From Rothia nasisuis (GTDB lineage: Bacteria > Actinomycetota > Actinomycetes > Actinomycetales > Micrococcaceae): a stretch of 64,000 nt of DNA. Below, in pieces: positions 2,643 to 35,415 of this stretch (the first letter of the stretch is position 1; every line of letters starts with the position of its first letter). The notes under the pieces were generated by a model. That model was not told where the DNA came from. It worked only from the letters and a program-made list of their open reading frames with translations, and did no database searches. The stretch is from positions 248,001 through 312,000 of the forward strand of contig NZ_CAKMSB010000001.1 in the NCBI RefSeq assembly GCF_928381405.1, in the 5' to 3' direction. Both the position numbers and the translations under genes were made by a program.

Positions 2643-2804
2643 TTGAAGCCTCCATTCTTTTGTGTATACAATTGACATATGAGCTAGCCAGCGGTTTAAA
2701 ACTATCATGTTCATCCAGAACCTATCAAGCAGATATTTAGACTCATTTTTAGAAATTTTTATTCGTAGTGGATACCCGAGAATGAGGATGTACGGACACC
2801 AAGA

Positions 2805-3706
2805 GGCTTATTCATAAGGGGTCCACACCCCAACCCCCACCAAGAGACAACGGCCCCACCAGGCGGCAAAAATATGAGCGTTAAATCTCCACAAATAACC
2901 TCAAACCACACCAGGAAAGACCGTTGCACCACCAGCGTACAACCGGGCTCACCACCACGCAATTCGCCATACTCATCACAGCCCTCAACACCCACCTCAC
3001 CTGGATCAAACCAGACCAAAAACCCCGCAGGCTCACCCTGACCCAGGCCCTAAAAATCACGCTGATCAGCTACCGACAGAACCTCACCCAAGAGACTCTC
3101 GCCCACCTCTTCGGTATCTCACAGCCAACCATCTCGCGGACCATCAAAACCATCGAAAAGGCCCTAGAAAAGGCTCTCACTCCACTAGTCCCCAGCTTAG
3201 AAGAGAGCCTGAAAGCACCTGGCTCTTTTGTGATTGACCGAACCCTTGTCCCCACCTGGAACTGGCGTGTCCCTTGGGAAAAGAAATTTCTCTGGTCAGC
3301 ATAAAAGAGCAGGATTTAACCATCAGGTGATCTGCACCCTCGATGGCAGGCTCTTAGCTATCACAGAACCGCTACCTGGGGCTAGACATGATGCTTACGC
3401 CTTCAGAACCCACGGGCTAAATCACTTTCTTGATTCTTCGACTTTGGCTGATAAGGGCTACGTAGGTTTGGGACTGGCCACACCGACAAAGCGCAAGCCT
3501 GGGGTGAAGCTAACTAAGGAGCAGAAACGAAATAATCGGATGCTCAATCGGCTACGGTCGGTGGTGGAGCGGGTCATCGCGCTGGTGTTGCACTTGGCGG
3601 GTTCTGCACACAGGCTTCAGGCGTCCGTTGGGCTCGTATGGGCGGGTGTTTCCAGTAGTTCGCGGGTTGCTCTTTTTGGCTGCGGGGTACCCCTTATGAA
3701 TAACCC
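2805..3706 (+). mobile_element. IS5-like insertion sequence, about 902 bp
   Basis: The ends form imperfect terminal inverted repeats: the left end reads GGCTTATTCATAAGGGGT and the right end, read inward, GGGTTATTCATAAGGGGT (17 of 18 identical). The element carries a two-frame transposase with a helix-turn-helix domain and a DDE_4-type catalytic domain, as in the IS427-like branch of the IS5 family. I see no clear short target duplication at the boundaries chosen (left flank ends CAAGA, right flank begins TCC). It lies just upstream of, and divergent from, the RiPP operon. Confidence 0.82.
2924..3304 (+). CDS. IS transposase, N-terminal part (orfA)
   Basis: A 126-residue frame starting with TTG behind an AGGAAAG ribosome site. 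It begins HHQRTTGLTTTQF and contains a helix-turn-helix with LTQETLAHLFGISQPTISRTI, typical of the DNA-binding half of IS5-type DDE_4 transposases. It ends in the first catalytic Asp segment, FVIDRTLVPTWNWR, and then runs into a stop at 3302. The rest of the catalytic domain continues in the +1 frame (orfB). In related transposases both parts are one polypeptide, so either a +1 ribosomal frameshift in the A/T-rich stretch near 3280-3293 joins them, or the element is inactivated. Confidence 0.85.
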   Translation: MHHQRTTGLTTTQFAILITALNTHLTWIKPDQKPRRLTLTQALKITLISYRQNLTQETLAHLFGISQPTISRTIKTIEKALEKALTPLVPSLEESLKAPGSFVIDRTLVPTWNWRVPWEKKFLWSA

Positions 3707-3716
3707 TCCAAACTGA
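3234..3716 (+). CDS. IS transposase, catalytic C-terminal part (orfB)
   Basis: This frame supplies the remainder of the DDE_4 catalytic domain: FSGQHKRAGFNHQV, the second Asp in PGARHDAYAF, ADKGYVGLG, and the Glu in RLRSVVERVIA. It overlaps orfA by about 70 nt in the +1 register. A fusion such as …WNWRVPWEKKF-SGQHKRAG… would restore the usual family sequence, placing the shift at the TTTC near 3291. The last codons run through the right inverted repeat, so the C-terminus (VPLMNNPPN) is encoded by the IS end and the stop falls outside it. The true start cannot be assigned independently; the residues before GKRNFSG are probably not translated. Confidence 0.8.
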   Translation: MTEPLSPPGTGVSLGKRNFSGQHKRAGFNHQVICTLDGRLLAITEPLPGARHDAYAFRTHGLNHFLDSSTLADKGYVGLGLATPTKRKPGVKLTKEQKRNNRMLNRLRSVVERVIALVLHLAGSAHRLQASVGLVWAGVSSSSRVALFGCGVPLMNNPPN

Positions 3717-10705: not shown

Positions 10706-10803
10706 CCTGGGCTCGCGCTCGCTACCAACCCTCTCGCGGGTTTGCTAGCGCTCATACCTGATTCACGCCAGCCCCGAGCCAGCAGCTTCGCTGCGAGCCC
10801 GGG
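10706..10803. repeat. Dispersed palindromic intergenic repeat, copy 1
   Basis: A 98-bp element 53 nt after panB. Outer arms CCTGGGCTCGC and GCGAGCCCGGG are complementary, and inner hairpins follow. It shares about 36 of 39 bases (from GATTCACGCCAGC to GCTGCGAG) and much of its left half with the copy at 35253-35356. It may also act as a bidirectional terminator between panB and the convergent small gene. Confidence 0.85.
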
Positions 10804-35252: not shown

Positions 35253-35356
35253 GAAGCAGGCTCACGCTCGCTGCCGACCCTCTCGCCTGGTTCGCTTCGC
35301 TCACGAGGCGATTCACGCCAGCCGCCGAGCCAGCAGCTTCGCTGCGAGCCTGCTTC
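35253..35356. repeat. Dispersed palindromic intergenic repeat, copy 2
   Basis: A 104-bp element with outer arms GAAGCAGGCTC (35253-35263) and GAGCCTGCTTC (35346-35356), perfectly complementary. The interior matches the copy at 10706-10803 closely, but the outer arms differ in sequence while staying complementary, as expected if a folded RNA or DNA hairpin is conserved. It lies in a 233-bp gene-free gap between the defence operon and the yjbR-like gene. Confidence 0.85.
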
Positions 35357-35415
35357 ATCTGCCCTTATGGATAAGCATCCTTTTCCAAATCTCTTGGAAG
35401 GTATAAAGCTTATTA

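Follow-up and report, generated by a model that had tools for sequence, protein, structure and literature searches.

A hairpin repeat family with covarying helices, restricted to part of the genus Rothia, and its possible movement as folded single-stranded DNA

The window analysed here, a stretch of 64,000 nucleotides from Rothia nasisuis (contig NZ_CAKMSB010000001.1, positions 248,001 to 312,000), holds two members of a hairpin repeat family of roughly 105 bp together with an insertion sequence (IS), all given on the plus strand. Copy 1 (10706-10803; recognised by sequence, covariance model and site comparison) lies between two convergent genes, the left of which we take to be panB. Its outer stem P1b has its 5' side at 10706-10716 and its 3' side at 10793-10803, and its core (AACCCTCT ... 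ATTCACGCCAG ... AGCCA) spans 10727-10781, the minus strand being the one that would fold. Copy 2 (35253-35356; recognised by sequence and covariance model) has the corresponding stem sides at 35253-35263 and 35346-35356 and a core (GACCCTCT ... ATTCACGCCAG ... AGCCA) that sequence and the alignment script place at 35276-35332; at 35362-35376 stands CCCTTATGGATAAGC, read by eye as the degenerate right end of a copy-carrying type of MITE. The IS5-like IS (2803-3708; family presumably IS5), identified by an end search and by its ORF domains, has two overlapping ORFs matching HTH_Tnp_4 and DDE_Tnp_4, and its inverted ends, GAGGCTTATTCATAAG, match those of MITEs that carry part of the hairpin family.

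The initial annotation located both copies correctly and was right that their arms pair, GAAGCAGGCTC with GAGCCTGCTTC perfectly and CCTGGGCTCGC with GCGAGCCCGGG with one T.G. It had also described the outer arms as different in sequence, but the arm is shared further than claimed (GGCTC[G/A]CGCTCGCT...): only about the outer 5 bp differ between copies 1 and 2, whereas across the family whole arms differ. When folded as DNA with flanks, copy 1 did no better than shuffled sequence (z -0.56) and copy 2 did (z -4.60); as RNA, the z-scores were -2.92 and -4.70, respectively.

Further copies, which had been proposed as a check, were found both in this genome and in its relatives. The 13-base core occurs 33 times at ≤1 mismatch in the 2.7-Mb genome, against 0 for the reversed pattern, and a covariance-model search returned 33 places at E≤0.01 (best 3.9e-19) and 41 at E≤1; the model was built from 14 of the genome's own copies, which are counted among the 33, after exclusion of three B-type copies. 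These matches cover 13 of 13 exact and 8 of 20 one-mismatch core places, and around the other 12 the surrounding sequence has none of the rest of the motif where it was read (all but one, C20). A search of the window by itself, allowing ≤3 mismatches, gave 25 core matches against 21.3 expected, no enrichment, so that only the two exact copies count there. With the same model, 20 of 35 Rothia genomes are carriers at E≤0.01, with up to 81 copies per genome, and 15 have none; when 295 genomes drawn at family level were searched with stricter filters, 15 matched, a tally of one genus in 32. Moreover, a sequence pattern searched among named genomes returned at least 114 stretches, and the 80 matches listed are all from Rothia, while viral contigs held no exact match to one exact pattern of the element and plasmids no match to copy 2. 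In these searches the hairpin family is restricted to part of the genus Rothia. Among literature titles and abstract openings, we found none describing it.

The unit is a hairpin in which arms of about 26 nt flank a core of about 55 nt. A motif-requiring script collected 165 distinct copies, orthologues included, in 28 arm clusters (the biggest with 95 copies); among the 138 copies without MITE ends, strict scoring gave median arm reaches of 26 and 27 nt (5-95% ranges, 19-29 and 20-31). The script demands CC[CT]TCT and AGCCA exactly and ATTCA...GCCAG with ≤1 change, so that degenerate copies are missing and these motifs, like the first P2 pair, are conserved by construction; neither the arms nor P2 pairs 2-5 were used in its selection, though many loci had been fetched with the covariance model, which itself holds P1 and P2 pairs, and others by sequence alone. 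Two helices covary over the 28 arm types: P1a, of 6 bp, and P2, of 5 bp. With each cluster represented by one copy, and with P1a scored at whichever of three offsets paired best, standard pairs occupy P1a positions 1-6 in 26-28 of the 28 types, a single position showing as many as five standard pair types, and pairing falls at pair 7 (15 of 28). In P2, 26-28 of 28 types have a standard pair at positions 2-4 and 22 at position 5; pairs 2-5 combined are standard in 103 of 112 cases, against 60% when sides are swapped between copies. The arm covariation that the initial annotation had suggested examining is likewise evident in the duplexes, whose mean energy is -49.2 kcal/mol for own arms and -24.9 for swapped ones, own arms beating all ten swaps in 28 of 28 types. 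A consensus fold by RNAalifold, computed from trimmed blocks lined up at the best P1a offset, recovers P1a and P2. The hairpin runs from an outer stem of free sequence through P1a into an asymmetric, sequence-conserved internal loop, beyond which P2 closes a variable loop. Three subtypes can be told apart by eye: A (with GCTCGCTGCC arms, the type found in the window), B (CCTTCT ... CCAGCCA) and C (P2 TTGGGC or similar). By eye, the P2 loop also seemed to form a pseudoknot with CGAGCC, an idea rejected because the partner's place is not constant. These comparisons show a repeat family with a covarying structure.

The mismatches left in the helices are unevenly distributed between the strands. 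Counted uniquely on the written strand, they comprise 77 A.C, 27 G.T and 87 others (binomial p 1e-6); the A.C:G.T ratio is 89:31 with repeats retained and 17:8 in the 28 representatives, and it leans the same way in subtype A (32:13) and in B/C (45:14). By gene context, it is 30:7 for +-, 20:4 for -- and 4:2 for unplaced copies; the ++ context taken by itself gives no significant asymmetry (19:10, p 0.14), and the small -+ class shows none (4:4). Since an A.C on one strand reads as G.T or G.U on the other, pairing is better preserved in the complement. RNA energies likewise favour folding of the complement in 28 of 28 types, by a mean of 11.5 kcal/mol, an advantage that may be partly one of composition, its loops being G/T rich. 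A deamination bias tied to one strand could produce this pattern of mismatches too; such a bias would itself single out that strand as the exposed one. The folding strand therefore appears to be the complement of the one written in the initial annotation, a reading that is well supported.

Copies lie mostly behind genes, in both orientations. Over eight collinear stretches totalling 2.39 Mb, with ORFs called by a simple script rather than a gene finder, 28 of 44 copies (representing 19 sites) fall between convergent genes, against 127 convergent gaps among the 842 of ≥100 bp (the rest being 506 tandem and 209 divergent); the remaining copies are 12 tandem, 2 divergent and 2 inside an ORF call. 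The full set of 165 comprises 54 convergent, 71 tandem, 8 divergent, 10 in ORF calls and 22 unplaced. In G005, no replication-strand preference was evident among 49 hits (27 vs 22, by hand count, with the origin assumed at coordinate 1 and the terminus mid-genome). The gene context thus joins the genome and genus copies and the covariation in supporting the earlier description of a structurally constrained, intergenic palindromic repeat family, and neither of the two outcomes named there as refuting it, a lack of further copies or arms that fail to covary, came about.

A structured RNA is the main rival to movement as DNA. Under this explanation, transcription of the folding strand would yield an RNA whose core, a motif that binds protein or is catalytic, has spread with the repeats and serves in 3'-end processing, as a terminator or as a small RNA. 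The covarying helices around a conserved asymmetric internal loop, the tolerance of G.U-type pairs on one strand, and the location of 54 of the 71 tandem copies ≤100 bp from the end of the upstream gene (hand count) all speak for it. However, of the 71 tandem copies 44 have the written strand in the gene-sense direction and only 27 the folding strand, copies invert in place, some orthologous sites are empty (in G019 and G020), and the core matches no Rfam family, neither in the window at gathering scores nor at 10 and 7 loci with permissive E-values. Hence, we consider a structured RNA unlikely on balance. Separately, the Rfam covariance search identified a SAM-IV riboswitch at L011:2871-2986 (minus strand, E 3.9e-8).

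The initial annotation had described the repeats as REP/MITE-like and had pointed to a REP-associated transposase as something to look for. REPs of the GTAG and CGTC super-families are described as palindromes of 20-40 bp with an unpaired GTAG or CGTC tag at one end (PMC3733652), and a second study ties REP membership to a RAYT gene in the genome (PMC2817692). Like REP/BIME repeats with RAYT, the present hairpins are multi-copy, extragenic palindromes that stand behind or between convergent genes in either orientation, and the REP location, behind genes in convergent or unidirectional order, is that of 28 convergent and 12 tandem copies of the 44. Unlike them, they measure about 105 bp, and have an asymmetric conserved inner core, free-sequence arms and no tag: within 12 nt of the folded stem, whose foot is approximate (folds with 45-nt flanks), GTAG, GGAG, CGTC and CTAC occurred in 0 and GACG in 1 of 28 arm types. 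A Y1 (RAYT/IS200-type) transposase (Pfam PF01797) had no match in this genome and matched in 3 of 35 genus genomes, with 5 of 14 control genomes positive. All three Y1-bearing genomes (G004, G018, G019) are copy-rich, but 17 of the 20 carriers, this one included, have no Y1 match. With both defining features, RAYT gene and tag, missing, we rejected a true REP/BIME family moved by RAYT as extremely improbable, and the strict REP label is not supported.

Other candidate movers fared no better. Reverse transcriptases (none in this genome; 4 of 35 genus genomes matched, 3 over the cut-off) and IS110-type transposases (none in this genome; 3 of 35 matched) were rejected as movers for want of a match here. 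Among ORFs of at least 60 aa within 1.5 kb of the 165 copies (92 site groups), no recurrent neighbour was an evident mover, the top cluster being a 179-aa frame at 7 site groups.

The MITE-like part of the earlier label may hold for a minority of copies: exact 8-base shared inverted ends were found within 90 nt of 27 of 165 copies and were lacking at 138, in a test that misses decayed ends. A genome search for the ends GAGGCTTATTCAWAAG allowing ≤1 mismatch gave 104 occurrences, against 0 for the reversed control, and many small MITEs of the genome have ends that match those of the IS. Besides the IS in the window, a second IS5-like stretch with such ends, carrying one 257-aa ORF, lies at G000:C5:106700-107900 (L330). 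Equal flanking triplets were present at 18 of 53 distinct end pairs <420 bp apart, a figure without control from the loci examined. One could suppose from this that the whole family consists of IS5-family MITEs, moved by an IS5-like transposase through the GAGGCTTATTCAWAAG ends, and that copies without ends are decayed. We judge this improbable, as the 138 copies without exact ends include well-paired ones with long unique arms, and the core is present in some MITEs with these ends and absent from others. Most hairpin copies show neither such ends nor a target duplication: in those 138, duplications of 3 nt numbered 19 against 16.2 expected, and of 4 nt 5 against 4.2. The IS5-like layer may explain the spread of part of the family and not the rest.

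Comparison of orthologous sites revealed varied histories. Behind the gene to the left of copy 1, the element is present in G018 and G028, inverted in G019, and accompanied by further inserts in G030, G005 and G017; the hairpin is bare in G016 and, in the inverted form, in G004, and G020 has nothing there. G008 carries a C-type copy whose arms differ, and G026 matches the B type weakly. The site at G030:250683 is filled in G030, G028 and G017 and bare in G018, G005 and G020. Hairpins such as these, lacking only the core, with the loop GCTCGCT (5 in 1.6 Mb), initially led us to favour the core as an insert that lands in pre-existing hairpin loops, the arms belonging to the target. We abandoned this explanation, now very improbable, once the core was seen in more distant relatives at two sites (G017 at G030:250683; G000, G028 and others at copy 1); moreover, the bare forms are rarer than A-type filled ones (5 vs 26 motif matches), and the inner helix terminates at a fixed place. 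With the distant relatives filled at these two sites, the simplest account of the bare forms is deletion between CGCTG repeats.

Elsewhere, a whole hairpin common to G018 and G005 and absent at that site in G020, G028 and G030 is likely a gain. Nothing stands at the site orthologous to G018:136958 in G019 and G020, nor at that of G018:242268 in G020; at G018:217954 a C-type hairpin takes the place where G017 has a B-type element, and at G005:144432 the genomes located differ in subtype or arms. Inversion in place is seen between like flanks, where L062 and L065 are opposite to L080 and L081, and was read by eye at three further sites. At the sites inspected, clear gains were seen less often than losses and replacement of the entire intergenic stretch, so the case for mobility depends chiefly on copy number. 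Two more repeat modules, CCCCGCCTTGCGGCGGATTCCG and CCTCGCGCGCTCGGAATCT (14 and 17 matches, respectively, at ≤3 changes in 2.39 Mb; control, 0), are nested Russian-doll fashion inside elements at L048, L050, L059, L096, L097 and L101, and in G028 and G019 at the G018:242268 site. A B-type copy also adjoins an oppositely oriented A- or C-type copy at L013 (G000:C11:22384-22590) and L176 (G005:C1:1320516-1320722).

Taken as a whole, the hairpins may well represent a non-autonomous mobile element of about 105 bp, limited to part of Rothia and recognised as folded single-stranded DNA, which is our preferred, though tentative, reading. We infer that the strand complementary to the one first written becomes single-stranded, and that its folded core is recognised in trans by a putative recombinase or transposase, with stems kept for shape and not for sequence. 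Insertion behind genes would leave promoters intact and so be tolerated, a terminator function is possible for some copies, and the events read from orthologues would comprise whole-hairpin gain, core loss between CGCTG repeats, nesting and flipping in place. That the hairpins are a new genus-limited element in the form of the folded strand, with a mover that is neither Y1/RAYT, IS110-type nor a reverse transcriptase, is possible, if doubtful. The integron attC site provides a parallel, as it acts as a folded single strand with free stem sequence, fixed unpaired positions and one active strand, but the conserved part of our hairpins is central whereas that of attC is in the outer R and L boxes. 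Mosaic repeats such as BOX, RUP and Bcr1 are likewise short, structured, gene-free and intergenic.

To our knowledge, small structured repeats are common, and few clearly keep shape rather than sequence. The 28 arm types provide unusually clear covariation and the strand asymmetry points to the strand that folds; together they make a search for a binding protein directly testable. In its gains, losses, nestings and inversions, the family also provides a natural series of events to study.
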